From Magnetococcales bacterium (lineage in GTDB: Bacteria > Pseudomonadota > Magnetococcia > Magnetococcales > JADFWU01): a stretch of DNA of 64,000 bases. The stretch lies in assembly GCA_015234045.1 (NCBI GenBank), contig JADFWU010000004.1:50601-114600 (forward strand). Reading direction: 5' to 3'. Numbering within the stretch: the first letter of the stretch is position 1; every line of letters begins with the position of its first letter. A program made the translations under genes and the position numbers. The notes beneath the pieces are model-generated. The model saw only the letters and a program-made list of their open reading frames with translations. It was not told the origin of the DNA and searched no databases. Below are positions 106 through 6,646 of this stretch, in pieces.

Positions 106-1854
106 TTAAAAACGCATGCCTAGCAATGAACCAGACACATCATTATCTGTCAATCTCAACCGTACATATTGATTAATATCAAAATTTGAACAAAACTCAT
201 CATGCGGAACCATATCGCTATTCATAGTGCAGATATACTGAAAACCACGTTTTTCTGACTCTCTACAAGCCAATTCCAAGGCCCGCGCACGTTGACGCTC
301 ATCAACGCCATCAAACATTAGACTATCATGAATCAGAACACGGGGAGTTTTTTCATGTTCCGCCCATAAACTAGCCAACATCAAGTCATAACAGAAAATC
401 TTCATATTCCCGATTCCGTCACTTTCTGAGCGTTCAATTTCAACATCAAAAAGATAACCTTTAGACTCAACATTCACTACTAAGTCACCTGGAACCTCAT
501 ACAAATATTGAGAATATTCATTAAATAAGGAAATTGCTTTTTCACGCACTGTTTTTCGTTCATCGTGATCTATGCGCCATTTTTGGTGTAATTTTTCTCT
601 ATCAATTTTCAGCTGACTTTGACCAGTCACAAAAGCACGTTGATTTTCAATCATGGATATTACTTCATTTAACTCATTTACTGCTTTCATATGTTGCTGT
701 TGAAGACGATTATACTCATTCAATGCACCATGAGCTTGCAGAGTTCTCATAATATTAGCACGTATTTCAGTTTTTTCTTGAATGCTTTTTTCACGTTGAG
801 ATATAGATAGTTTTATTCTTTCTATTTCATCAGCAAGAAAATCATGTCGGTTCGCAATAATCTGAGCATGAAATTTTTTGACTTCTTCTATCTTCCTTAG
901 TGCAATGCCAGGAAGTGCGATTCCAGCTTCTTCATAAATTCGAACCAAAGCATCATTCTGTGGTGGAGTCTCATCTTGAAGATTTCCTTCATATAAAACT
1001 AAAAACTGCTGATCCATATTGTTCGAATTCATCAAATCATGAACTTCTTTTGTTAGCTTGTCAGCATTATTTTGCAGTTCTTCATATTTTGGATGGACTC
1101 GAAATTGGCTAATTTCTATTTCTTCTCGCTCAATCTGACTCTCAATCCTAACTCTTTGCGACTCTAATTCACCCAATGTTGTTTTAAAACCTTGAACAAT
1201 TCCACCATCAATTGCCTTCTTCAAAACATTAATATCTTCTTCACGCTTTTTTATTACTTCAAGTTCTCCAACATATTCCCATGCAAGCCCAAGTAAAAAA
1301 GCATTTGTAAGCATGGCATCCTGTTTCGTTTGCTTACCATACGACTCAAAAGGCGTTAAATAGGCACCTTTTCCACGTCGAATAAAGTAAGAGATCATAC
1401 TTCGAAAAGATGCCCGTTTAGACTGTCCTTTCTGTTCTATTGGGAGACCAAAAAGAAGATCTCCCAGTAACAGATTCAGTTCGCTGGCTAGATATACTAA
1501 ATTACCTTTACGTGCAGTCGGTTGAATAGGCCATAATGGCGATACATCATAGACATAAATATTTGAATAACTATCTATTCCTCGGGTGATTGTAACAGGT
1601 TTATTATCAATACTTATCTCTAAGGAAAACGTCCAATCAGCTAAATGTTTTTTTGGCAGTACTTTCTTTTGCGCTGCATCAATATTAGCCCCAAGACAAA
1701 AATGAATTATTTGAATTAATGTAGTTTTTCCAAGACCATTACGAGAATCCTTCCCCGAAGAAACCGTTGTGCGGTCTGCAAGAACAATATTGAACCCCTC
1801 GGTAAAGGCCAATTTTCTAAAACGATGATCATTTGCATAGATCTGAGTAATCAC
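106..1854 (-). CDS. DUF2326-type ABC/SMC-like ATPase of an ABC-3C system
   Basis: Predicted ATPase motor of a three-component ABC-3C conflict system. The 582-residue protein has a P-loop at about residues 37-46 (DSRNGLGKTT), in the variant form common in DUF2326 and RecN/SMC-like ATPases. A long coiled-coil centre covers about residues 195-470. The C-terminal Walker B region near residues 506-521 (VLIHDSLMFDG) has the HDS signature typical of DUF2326. It has no membrane segment, so it is not a transporter. The start is GTG, and its GTGA overlaps the stop of the upstream middle-component gene by four bases, indicating translational coupling. It is the last gene of the operon. Family assignment is from recognised motifs; a role in phage or plasmid defence is inference from what has been predicted for this class. 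Confidence 0.85.
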   Translation of the reverse strand: MITQIYANDHRFRKLAFTEGFNIVLADRTTVSSGKDSRNGLGKTTLIQIIHFCLGANIDAAQKKVLPKKHLADWTFSLEISIDNKPVTITRGIDSYSNIYVYDVSPLWPIQPTARKGNLVYLASELNLLLGDLLFGLPIEQKGQSKRASFRSMISYFIRRGKGAYLTPFESYGKQTKQDAMLTNAFLLGLAWEYVGELEVIKKREEDINVLKKAIDGGIVQGFKTTLGELESQRVRIESQIEREEIEISQFRVHPKYEELQNNADKLTKEVHDLMNSNNMDQQFLVLYEGNLQDETPPQNDALVRIYEEAGIALPGIALRKIEEVKKFHAQIIANRHDFLADEIERIKLSISQREKSIQEKTEIRANIMRTLQAHGALNEYNRLQQQHMKAVNELNEVISMIENQRAFVTGQSQLKIDREKLHQKWRIDHDERKTVREKAISLFNEYSQYLYEVPGDLVVNVESKGYLFDVEIERSESDGIGNMKIFCYDLMLASLWAEHEKTPRVLIHDSLMFDGVDERQRARALELACRESEKRGFQYICTMNSDMVPHDEFCSNFDINQYVRLRLTDNDVSGSLLGMRF

Positions 1855-2078
1855 GGCCTATTCCTTCTGATCAAACCATCTACCAACTCAACGGCTCCGA
1901 TAGCATAGAGAAAATCCAATACCAGAACAAAACGCCAATAGACAGTTAGCCCAGGTGCTTGACGCACACGATTCCATAGACTAGTCACAGTCTGTGGGGT
2001 GTGTAAATTATTCAACACCACAGAACCTGCTCCAATAACCGCATGATCAAGGTCAACATGTTTTGTGGGGAGAATCAC
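1851..2078 (-). CDS. ABC-3C middle component (small linker protein)
   Basis: A 75-residue protein between the HNH effector and the DUF2326 ATPase. It overlaps the gene before it and the gene after it by four bases each, and both it and the ATPase start at GTG within GTGA. Size and position are those of the middle components that accompany DUF2326 ATPases. The sequence opens with a short strand and HxxLD stretch (MILPTKHVDLDHAVIGAG), continues with a helical core, and has a segment (VYWRFVLVLDFLYAIGAVEL) like the winged-helix-like middle component class. These are thought to bridge ATPase and effector. The subclass (for example MC6) is a guess. With no catalytic residues visible, the assignment depends mainly on operon context. 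Confidence 0.7.
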   Translation of the reverse strand: MILPTKHVDLDHAVIGAGSVVLNNLHTPQTVTSLWNRVRQAPGLTVYWRFVLVLDFLYAIGAVELVDGLIRRNRP

Positions 2079-2836
2079 TTTTCAAACACCTCACAACTTT
2101 GAAACAAATAGACCAATACAGAAAGGCCAGCAGCTTTTTGAGTAAAATCCCAACTTTCATCACTGGCAAATTCTTGCATAGCCTGAAACAAATCATTACC
2201 TACTAATCCTTTACTCCTAACTCTGTTATATTCTTTGACAAAACCAGACTTAAGGCGTTCAGGAAATTCATCGTCCCATTTTGCCACAGATTGCAGATAA
2301 CTTCTAACCAAGTCACTTTTTAGCAACCCAATCTGAATTGACCCTTTTATTTCTTCTGTCAGATTATTACGTGCCATCTTATCTGGAATATTTAATAAAG
2401 AGACATCAGGAAATATCTCCTGTCCTGGCTTAGCTTGAATTCTCTTGGTGACCTCCTCTAATTCATCGAACCCAAACCGTGTAAAAGCTTCATTCAATTG
2501 AATTCTAACCCATTCTTCGTGTTCTTTTTTGATTTTTTCAAGCAATTTCACTGGCCATATATTTGGCTGTTTATCTATCTTAGAATGGCAAGATGGACAA
2601 AGCAAAATTAGATTTTTATGATGATCTCTTTGATCAAGTGGATAATCTGGGTCACCGCGAGCTGCATCATCCGATTTACCAATAATATGAGCTAGCTCTC
2701 CAATCTGCTGAACTTTTTCACTTTTAGTACCAGATAATAACAATTCCTCCCGACAATCTGGCATGGAACAGAGAGCTGCTGCTGCACCATAAATAATTTT
2801 TATATCTTTTATTGCAATATTTCTTGATTTCGCCAC
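2075..2836 (-). CDS. HNH endonuclease effector of the ABC-3C system
   Basis: A 253-residue protein, first gene of the operon. The N-terminal half is a zinc-binding HNH nuclease: Cys23 and Cys28, then GELAHI with His50, Asn75 in KNLILLC, and Cys80-x2-Cys83-His84 in CPSCHSKID. The C-terminal half (about 110-253) is helical, without recognised catalytic residues, and probably the ABC-3C C-terminal adaptor that docks to the middle component. The start is GTG, eight bases after an AGGA at the expected distance. The predicted activity is DNA cleavage when released or activated by the ATPase complex. The nuclease call is from visible motifs; the trigger and the target are unknown. Confidence 0.85.
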   Translation of the reverse strand: MAKSRNIAIKDIKIIYGAAAALCSMPDCREELLLSGTKSEKVQQIGELAHIIGKSDDAARGDPDYPLDQRDHHKNLILLCPSCHSKIDKQPNIWPVKLLEKIKKEHEEWVRIQLNEAFTRFGFDELEEVTKRIQAKPGQEIFPDVSLLNIPDKMARNNLTEEIKGSIQIGLLKSDLVRSYLQSVAKWDDEFPERLKSGFVKEYNRVRSKGLVGNDLFQAMQEFASDESWDFTQKAAGLSVLVYLFQSCEVFEK

Positions 2837-3212: not shown

Positions 3213-4460
3213 TTTCACTACCGGACACTTTTTACCCCTAAGCCCTCTTGAGAGGCATAACGAGTCGTAAGCCTTCATTTAGAAGGTGCTCCAGCCAGCG
3301 AAATCCAAGCTGAAACAGGCTTAAATCAATGCGATTACAACGATGTATCTCCCCTGCCTTTCCGCTTTCTTTGCACAACTCTCCCAAGTAAACCACCCAG
3401 ATGTAAGCAAGGCAGGCTGCTATCAGAAGGCGCGACAAGCGTTCAGGATTTGACAGGTGGGATCGCTGGATTTGGAAGCCTCTTGTCTTCTGGTCACTGA
3501 AAAACGTTTCGATTCTGAAACGAAGGGCGTACTGATCACACACCTCTTCAGCAGTGGTCAAATTTGAGACCAGGTATATGGGCTCTTTGCAGTCTTCTCT
3601 CCACCAACAAACCACCCTAACAGGTCCATGTTTATCTTTTTTAAACAAACAATTGCAAACATCTATATATTCTCCTTCCGTCATGTGTTTCTCAATTTCA
3701 CGGCAAGAAAATTCATATCCCTCCCAATTCAAAATGATGCTCTTACTGGTCCGACAGGAAAAGTCCCATCCCATCATGGATACCGTCTCCAGAAGACGGA
3801 CACCATCAAACTCCCCGTCCCCCAGGATCACCACACGGGTATCTGATGGAATCAAGGCTTGAATCTGCTCCATCAGGCGCAAGTGCAACTCTTCAGGGAG
3901 GTGCCCCTTTTTACCCTTCAGCACAATCCAAGTGATCGGCAGAGCCCGCCCTTTGAAGATGACGTTGGCCATCAAAGCGATGTTCCCTCGTCCAACGGAG
4001 CTTCCATCTATAGCAATGACCAAGGCCTCTTGAATCTGGGCAAGTCGAGCCATCAATAGTTGCGCGAAAGGAAGAAAATATTCTTCTATTTCAATGCGTT
4101 TATTCCGCACCCAACGAACAAACTTCTTTTCCCTGCTTGTCAGTTTTGTGCCGTTGGGCGCTTTGCTTGCCACCTCAGGCAGATGTACATTCTTTGCCCC
4201 GATGATTCCGCTCATCATGGCTGCAAGGGTATTCAAATGACGGGCTACGTTCCCGCTGGCAGTGCCAGGAAAAAGCGTGGTAAGCTCTTTTCTGATGATG
4301 CGGAACCTTTTCGCATTGTCACCCATGGCTGTGTCCTTTGCTTGGTCGTTGAGGATGCAGCCATTTTTATTTTTCTCGGATGAAACGTCAATATTTCAAT
4401 GTATTACCACGTCTTTCAAAGCTCGTCAAACTCCTCTGGAAAAAGTGTCCGGTAGTGAAA
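3213..4460 (-). mobile_element. IS4-family insertion sequence
   Basis: The element is bounded by perfect 21-bp terminal inverted repeats at 3213-3233 and 4440-4460, each containing CACTACCGGACACTTTTT or its complement. It carries one full-length transposase gene. The flanks (AGGTCCATTC to the left, AGCATTAACC to the right) show no convincing target duplication, so the original insertion scar may have been rearranged. The intact transposase and identical ends suggest recent activity. The 4461-4776 stretch to the right is AT-rich and shows no gene. Confidence 0.88.
3238..4326 (-). CDS. IS4-family DDE transposase
   Basis: A 362-residue transposase that cuts and rejoins the ends of the surrounding element. 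The catalytic core shows the first Asp in AIDGSSVGRG (about residue 107), the second Asp in ILGDGEFDG (about residue 170), and the third, Glu, in YALRFRIETFFSDQKTRG. The last segment fits the Y-x2-R-x3-E-x6-K signature of IS4 elements. The stop lies five bases inside the left inverted repeat. The frame is intact with no internal stops, so the protein is probably functional. Exact IS subgroup cannot be fixed without comparison to a reference set. Confidence 0.92.
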   Translation of the reverse strand: MGDNAKRFRIIRKELTTLFPGTASGNVARHLNTLAAMMSGIIGAKNVHLPEVASKAPNGTKLTSREKKFVRWVRNKRIEIEEYFLPFAQLLMARLAQIQEALVIAIDGSSVGRGNIALMANVIFKGRALPITWIVLKGKKGHLPEELHLRLMEQIQALIPSDTRVVILGDGEFDGVRLLETVSMMGWDFSCRTSKSIILNWEGYEFSCREIEKHMTEGEYIDVCNCLFKKDKHGPVRVVCWWREDCKEPIYLVSNLTTAEEVCDQYALRFRIETFFSDQKTRGFQIQRSHLSNPERLSRLLIAACLAYIWVVYLGELCKESGKAGEIHRCNRIDLSLFQLGFRWLEHLLNEGLRLVMPLKRA

Positions 4461-6019: not shown

Positions 6020-6406
6020 TCACCAAAGGCGATTGACCGTATATTGATCAAATAGCTTCTCAATACTGATCAAGGTAAGATTTTCTACTATGGACTGCGT
6101 AATCAACATCCGATCAAAAGGGTCTCTATGCGCTCCAGAAAGCAATCCGGCACGTTGGGCATGAATGAGAGAAATAGGCAGGCTTGAAAATCTTTGTGTG
6201 GCGAGATGGTGAGGCAAATTCTCTGCTATTTCTTGAGCATGAGGCAATTTTCCAATTCGGAATTTGGTGGCAATTTCCCAAGCTGATGCTGAACTGACAA
6301 AGACCTCATTCCTCTCATTTGCAATAGCGTTTTTTGCCCGTTCAGATAATTGTTCATTTCCATAAAACCACCAAAGCAGTGCATGCGTATCAAGCAATAA
6401 GCGCAT
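6020..6406 (-). CDS. vapC: PIN-domain toxin, VapC type
   Basis: A 128-residue PIN-domain ribonuclease toxin. The acidic metal-binding residues are visible: Asp6 in LLLDTHALLW, Glu44 in SAWEIATK, and Asp95/Asp98 in HRDPFDRML. The DTHALLWW and RDPFDR patterns belong to the VapC subgroup that pairs with Phd/YefM-like antitoxins. The gene starts at ATG 6406 with GGAG at a good distance, three bases after the antitoxin stop. The expected action is cleavage of tRNA or rRNA when the antitoxin is degraded. The target cannot be predicted from sequence. Confidence 0.92.
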   Translation of the reverse strand: MRLLLDTHALLWWFYGNEQLSERAKNAIANERNEVFVSSASAWEIATKFRIGKLPHAQEIAENLPHHLATQRFSSLPISLIHAQRAGLLSGAHRDPFDRMLITQSIVENLTLISIEKLFDQYTVNRLW

Positions 6407-6409
6407 CCC

Positions 6410-6646
6410 TCACTCTCCTTCCCACGCCGCTAACTCTTCTTCCGGCAGTGGATCAAAAAAGCGCTCATCTACAGAACCCGTATGTTTCAATGTGCCAAAT
6501 GCACGCCCTTCAGGAAGCGGTGTAATAGGAACCAATTTAACAAGCGGATTTTTTCCACGAGCAATAATCACCTCTTCGCCCGTGAGTGCTTGATTGATAA
6601 TTCTTGAGAGATGTGTTTTTGCCGCATGAATAGTGTATTGACTCAT
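6410..6646 (-). CDS. vapB: Phd/YefM-family antitoxin
   Basis: A 78-residue antitoxin. The N-terminal half matches the Phd/YefM fold (MSQYTIHAAKTHLSRIINQA, then GEEVIIARGKNPLVKLVP), which binds DNA as a dimer. The acidic C-terminal tail (about 55-78, rich in Glu and Pro) is the usual toxin-neutralising segment. It is the first gene of the pair, with AGGTGG upstream of its ATG. Autoregulation is likely through the repeated palindrome at 6661-6683 just upstream. Confidence 0.9.
   Translation of the reverse strand: MSQYTIHAAKTHLSRIINQALTGEEVIIARGKNPLVKLVPITPLPEGRAFGTLKHTGSVDERFFDPLPEEELAAWEGE

Follow-up and report, generated by a model that had tools for sequence, protein, structure and literature searches.

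Among systems already studied, the locus reported here is closest to those of the wider ABC-3C/Lamassu class, which has been studied genetically and structurally in the case of DdmABC (PMC10586767, PMC12409362, PMC12904381). In Lamassu, DNA ends or hairpins are sensed and the effector is released as a tetramer (PMC12904381, PMC12409362), and the Walker B glutamate of LmuB is reported to be replaced by glutamine, suggesting slow or no hydrolysis (PMC10586767). Other systems of interest are PrrC, which is silenced by a type I restriction-modification (RM) enzyme and released if a phage inhibits that enzyme, and RloC, a Rad50-like DNA-break sensor (PMC3874168, PMC12707154); linkage to hsd genes is constant for PrrC and rare for RloC (PMC3874168). 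In Bacillus subtilis, yydBCD forms an operon (PMC8894471). No experiments on the DUF2326/MC6 branch of ABC-3C were found in the literature search, and PDC-M68 was in no paper found. Hence, the statement of the initial annotation that these systems are almost wholly uncharacterised holds for this branch as far as it was searched, but not for the wider Lamassu class (PMC10586767, PMC12409362).

The 64-kb stretch of DNA analysed (hereafter the window) contains three genes of this branch, in which adjacent ORFs share 4 bases and all three start codons are GTG; the ORF coordinates agree with the arrangement first annotated. The features of the operon and of its surroundings are as follows:

2075-2836, minus strand: component 1, HNH effector (253 aa, GTG start; PADLOC PDC-M68A 3e-77 over nearly the whole protein, PDB 9om4 5e-22, effector family alignment)
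2486-2827, minus strand: Cap5-type HNH nuclease domain, residues 4-117 (VIA-align Z 14.7 to CBASS Cap5, 8fmf)
2585-2587, minus strand: codon of His84, last His of the H50-N75-H84 triad (invariant in 20 HNH homologues)
2078-2470, minus strand: CTD10-like helical domain, residues 123-253 (PF20275 full length, E 0.015, below cut-off)
1851-2078, minus strand: component 2, MC6 (75 aa, GTG start; PF20293 2.9e-14, present in nearly all relatives)
1863-2039, minus strand: predicted winged-helix fold of MC6, residues 14-72, H-H-H-E-E (AlphaFold2 pLDDT 90.3)
106-1854, minus strand: component 3, DUF2326 Rad50/SMC-like ATPase (582 aa, GTG start; PF10088 2.6e-38, PDC-M68B 2.4e-189, LmuB 8.2e-16)
1723-1746, minus strand: variant P-loop SRNGLGKT, residues 37-44, with Lys43 (N39, G42 and K43 invariant)
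520-1257, minus strand: coiled-coil segment, about residues 200-445, lacking a CxxC zinc hook (coil free of Cys in the window)
415-423, minus strand: signature-like S-x-G motif, S478/G480 (G480 invariant, S478 at least 90%)
322-330, minus strand: Walker B end H509-D510-S511 (invariant; Ser replaces the catalytic Glu)
3213-4460, minus strand: IS, context outside the system (21-bp perfect terminal inverted repeats)
3238-4326, minus strand: DDE_Tnp_1 transposase of the IS, reading frame open (Pfam)
6020-6646, minus strand: Phd-type antitoxin and PIN toxin pair, context outside the system (Pfam)

All three families were matched in profile searches (DUF2326, MC6, PDC-M68A/B), in agreement with the ABC-3C composition predicted at the outset. 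The genes matching PDC-M68A and PDC-M68B are adjacent, as PADLOC defines PDC-M68, and a DUF2326 ATPase, a small middle component and an effector with a C-terminal domain (CTD) lie in one three-gene operon, as in ABC-3C systems of the MC6/DUF2326 type. The scores were well above the Pfam cut-offs for MC6 (53.3 bits versus 27.2) and for DUF2326, which covers residues 448-582 of the ATPase (131.3 bits versus 28.7). Homologues on plasmids carry the NCBI labels 'ABC-three component system middle component 6' and 'DUF2326 domain-containing protein'. By its profile matches, the window operon is a member of this already annotated ABC-3C family.

The N-terminal part of the effector resembles the nuclease domain of CBASS Cap5 both in sequence profile (PDB entry 9om4) and in predicted fold, the latter with an rmsd of 2.9 over 108 residues of 8fmf. 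In addition to the triad, Cys 23, 28 and 80 were invariant in the 20 HNH homologues, and H50 aligned with Cap5 His56, the residue mutated to Ala in entry 9nlg. These data bear out the nuclease assignment, as the MC6 match does for the 75-residue middle component, even though Pfam gave only weak HNH and CTD10 matches on the effector.

The remainder of the effector was aligned to CTD10 over the full length of the model, with 16.2 bits versus a cut-off of 28.1, and CTD10 was matched by 9 of 11 family members (best 1.5e-22). Residues 108-253 of the predicted structure superimposed on YydB residues 324-473 in 9a6c (Z 12.3, rmsd 3.1, 142 residues), where YydB is the partner of YydD. A search with the DUF2326 model also led to B. 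subtilis, whose DUF2326 protein we take to be YydD; the main text of the B. subtilis cross-linking paper names neither YydB nor YydD. Fold likeness to YydB, the YydD partnership and the DUF2326 match in B. subtilis together suggest that the CTD is probably an ATPase-docking domain. Against docking stands the nature of the match, which is 11% identical and has as its target an integrative, deep-learning, cross-link-restrained YydD-YydB model. The idea that the CTD of the effector is homologous to the coil of the ATPase was considered and rejected (hhalign probabilities 0.5 and 3.8%). PF20275 nevertheless scores highly on the effector C-terminus and on the ATPase coil alike, in the window ATPase (106-1854) and in its relatives. 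Since hhalign found no homology, two regions have probably been combined in the CTD10 model, whose matches on ATPases are no evidence for an effector domain.

For MC6 a winged helix is predicted, and the folds nearest to its model were the cullin WHB, the Rpa2 WH and other winged helices (Z 8-9.5); neither LmuC nor a KITE protein was among the fold-search matches listed, which excludes nothing. Searching PDB sequences with the profiles of the ATPase and of MC6 yielded no useful match.

In the ATPase, the DUF2326 match, the P-loop with its first Gly substituted and the HDS motif confirmed what had been annotated from the letters of the sequence. No CxxC zinc hook was present in the coil of any of 77 homologues, and AAA_23 was matched by 7 of 11 family members. 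HDS was invariant in 11 aligned ATPases, namely that of the window and ten plasmid homologues collected by plain tblastn, a set free of the selection bias that affects the pattern scan; every ATPase examined had Ser where the catalytic Glu of Walker B would stand. From the sequence we infer that residue 511 is the catalytic-Glu site, against which it counts that the spacing to the next conserved Asp (D518) is one residue longer than is usual in Rad50/SMC. Loss of the catalytic Glu, parallel to that of LmuB, suggests by analogy a slow or one-way switch.

The operon is not restricted to this organism. Gene order was kept across many bacterial phyla and archaea, so the conservation check proposed with the initial annotation came out in its favour. 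Neither of the outcomes named there as refuting, a lack of family matches or homologues in a different gene order, was observed. Among 76 related loci (numbered with the prefix L), the 4-base overlap was found between effector and MC6 in 67, between MC6 and ATPase in 62 and at both junctions in 54, which indicates that the arrangement is not due to chance. The GTG starts are no family trait, genes 2 and 3 both starting with ATG in 58 of the 76. Phyla are intermingled in the ATPase tree, as horizontal transfer would lead one to expect. The nearest copies are from Magnetococcales (ATPase identity about 57-59%), L116 being the nearest relative, and the nearest plasmid copies are 41% identical. 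The trio is intact in L116, L117 and L121; the effector is frame-shifted in L013 (4506-5250) and reduced to a C-terminal stub in L014 (5741-5780), with MC6 and ATPase open in both, although these two loci come from Magnetococcales MAGs in which assembly errors are possible.

In the host genome, only one DUF2326 gene was found by genome search. In several Magnetococcales the genes murI and cnoX adjoin each other; in the window they lie 6.9 kb apart, and the space between them is filled by an accessory block composed of the operon, the IS, a lipoprotein-like ORF, an SNase and the Phd/PIN pair. In relatives the same gap measures about 26 bases (L103), 64 (L122), 98 (L124) or 630 (L123). A full-length ATPase match was obtained in 7 of 48 genomes of the order. 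This sporadic presence, together with the insertion between murI and cnoX, indicates that the operon is accessory. The IS, present as a single copy in this genome assembly, sits between the operon and the Phd/PIN pair, which had been called a toxin-antitoxin relic and which appears to be intact.

A constant chassis of ATPase, MC6 and effector CTD is combined with a variable effector N-terminus, which is HNH in most relatives. An REase-like N-terminus with the motif GDxxxDG, read here as a putative restriction-endonuclease fold and matched by no Pfam domain, forms a separate clade and occurs again within the HNH clade (L034, L042, L043), the tree forcing at least two changes between the HNH and REase-like labels. 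An REase-type ABC-3C operon was also observed directly after a shortened HsdR-like ORF in another Magnetococcales genome (L120, 3774-8009). In one copy, from a Vibrio plasmid, the effector carries a SMEK domain. In a cyanobacterial clade (support 100) a coiled coil takes the place of HNH, and in L016, L018, L021, L022, L023, L024 and L040 a matching coil is also present on the gene directly upstream. In Rhizonema (L022, 3174-4791) this upstream coil is preceded by a caspase domain (5.6e-22), and the coil-coil score was 95 versus a shuffled maximum of 48; in five other cyanobacterial loci the upstream coil is followed by an unknown C-terminal domain. The matching coils suggest that the cyanobacterial adaptor recruits an effector in trans.

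The reading that we favour, with a probability of about 0.72, is that the trio is an anti-phage/anti-plasmid ABC-3C module similar to Lamassu/DdmABC, which would sense DNA and release an HNH DNase. Sequence or structural models provide its parts: a Rad50/SMC-like ATPase whose short coils lack a hook, a winged-helix MC6 and a Cap5-type HNH protein with a docking-type CTD. In a cell at rest, the HNH protein would be kept inactive on the ATPase through its CTD and MC6. Once the ATPase encounters aberrant DNA, such as ends, hairpins or intermediates from the replication of an invader, ATP-driven closure of the heads, long-lived because Ser replaces the catalytic Glu, would release or cluster the effector. 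The HNH domains would then form pairs or tetramers, as those of Cap5 do, and cleave DNA broadly, so that the invader is cleared or the infected cell is killed. DNA sensing, complex formation, effector release and the abortive outcome are all steps that we infer by analogy. This defence reading is based on the family matches, the Cap5-like HNH, the YydB-like fold of the CTD, the winged helix of MC6, the LmuB and AAA_23 matches and the invariant HDS, and also on the swappable effector N-terminus, the repeated embedding in type I RM loci, the sporadic presence, the insertion between murI and cnoX and the published mechanism of Lamassu. Against likeness to Lamassu, the ATPase is far from LmuB (8e-16 versus 2e-189 for its own family).

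The embedding in RM loci raises a second explanation, namely that the trio guards or backs up type I restriction, firing once RM is blocked or once DNA ends produced by RM build up. Across several phyla, ten relatives have the trio linked to type I restriction genes, six with the order hsdM-hsdS-[trio]-hsdR (L020, L035, L038, L039, L081, L116) and the others with a partial or looser arrangement (L013, L033, L052, L056); hsdS and the effector gene overlap by 4 bases in L035, L038, L039 and L116. The ATPase tree forces at least seven changes of the hsd-linked label, and the nearest relative of the window copy is itself RM-embedded. Profile models matched type I specificity subunits at least 9 times and type I methyltransferases at least 8 times among 111 neighbouring proteins. 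Type I hsd genes are normally a tiny fraction of genes, and on account of this general rarity we regard the linkage as probably far above chance. The PrrC and RloC precedents also speak for a guard (PMC3874168, PMC12707154). On the other hand, the window copy and most relatives have no adjoining hsd genes, the hsdM homologues of the host are on other contigs, and co-location could reflect defence clustering only. A guard role is therefore possible although unlikely; it overlaps with the Lamassu-like reading, from which it differs in the trigger, and would make the window copy a stand-alone relative. A bolder and slightly more tentative proposal is that the trio, having entered between hsdS and hsdR on repeated occasions, serves as a plug-in second line which would fire on restriction failure or restriction-made ends and whose chassis takes varied effectors, including a cyanobacterial caspase that matching coiled coils would recruit in trans. 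For the conflict role originally drawn from the neighbours in the window, the IS and the toxin-antitoxin pair are weak evidence, and the type I RM embedding of relatives is a much better argument.

It is more doubtful that the trio is mainly an addiction-like module of plasmid competition, carried on plasmids and killing or curing cells with competing replicons. Homologues were found in 46 plasmid records, some of them conjugative and with transfer or replication genes beside the homologue, and plasmid copies lie near AbiE, toxin-antitoxin, methylase or conjugation genes; none of 50,697 phage records had a homologue, and among viral contigs just 15 did. However, chromosomal or MAG contigs carry many of the homologues, in several cases beside RM genes, and the closest analogue that has been studied, DdmABC, is active against plasmids as well as phages (PMC12409362). 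A housekeeping Rad50-Mre11-like repair machine, as the pairing of a Rad50/SMC-like ATPase with a nuclease might suggest, is highly improbable given the sporadic distribution, the plasmid carriage, the exchange of the effector for REase-like, SMEK or caspase-associated modules and its loss in close relatives.

The Lamassu-like reading gives a concrete, testable mechanism, drawn from comparative data, to a family known by profile annotation. The design proposed is that of a constant sensor chassis with swappable effectors, in which the ATPase lacks the catalytic Glu and the HNH would be controlled by protein contacts. The window operon is a fairly ordinary member, and the interest comes from its relatives: the recurrent hsdM-hsdS-[trio]-hsdR order offers a direct route to asking whether ABC-3C modules guard restriction in the manner of PrrC, and yydBCD of B. 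subtilis may give a laboratory handle.

Compared with known systems, the trio shares with PrrC and RloC an ABC or Rad50-like sensor that drives a toxic nuclease, but those are RNA anticodon nucleases in one polypeptide, whereas here the candidate DNase is a separate HNH protein accompanied by a middle protein. The yydBCD operon likewise includes a DUF2326-type ATPase, and the C-terminal fold of YydB resembles the effector CTD, although YydB is longer (481 residues) and identity is low. With CBASS Cap5 (HNH-SAVED) the likeness is confined to the HNH nuclease domain; Cap5 has a SAVED cyclic-nucleotide sensor where the effector has the CTD10-like domain, and neither a SAVED domain in the effector nor a cyclase gene in the operon was found. 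This replacement suggests that the effector is probably switched by protein contacts and not by a nucleotide messenger. Lamassu type II/DdmABC (LmuA-LmuC-LmuB) is similar in having an effector, a small middle protein and a coiled-coil ABC ATPase in which the Walker B Glu is replaced. It differs in the residue after the Walker B Asp (Gln, versus Ser in the trio), in the zinc hook, present in many LmuB and absent here, and in its DUF6521 middle protein and Cap4 effector in place of MC6 and HNH. The PADLOC LmuB model matched the window ATPase far more weakly than PDC-M68B did, and the LmuA and LmuC models gave no match in the trio up to E 1; the trio may work like Lamassu while standing outside PADLOC's Lamassu family as tested. 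From ABC-3C systems of the MC6/DUF2326 type (PF20293, PF10088, PDC-M68) it differs in nothing substantial, the genes, their order and overlaps, the HNH effector and the motifs all being the same.
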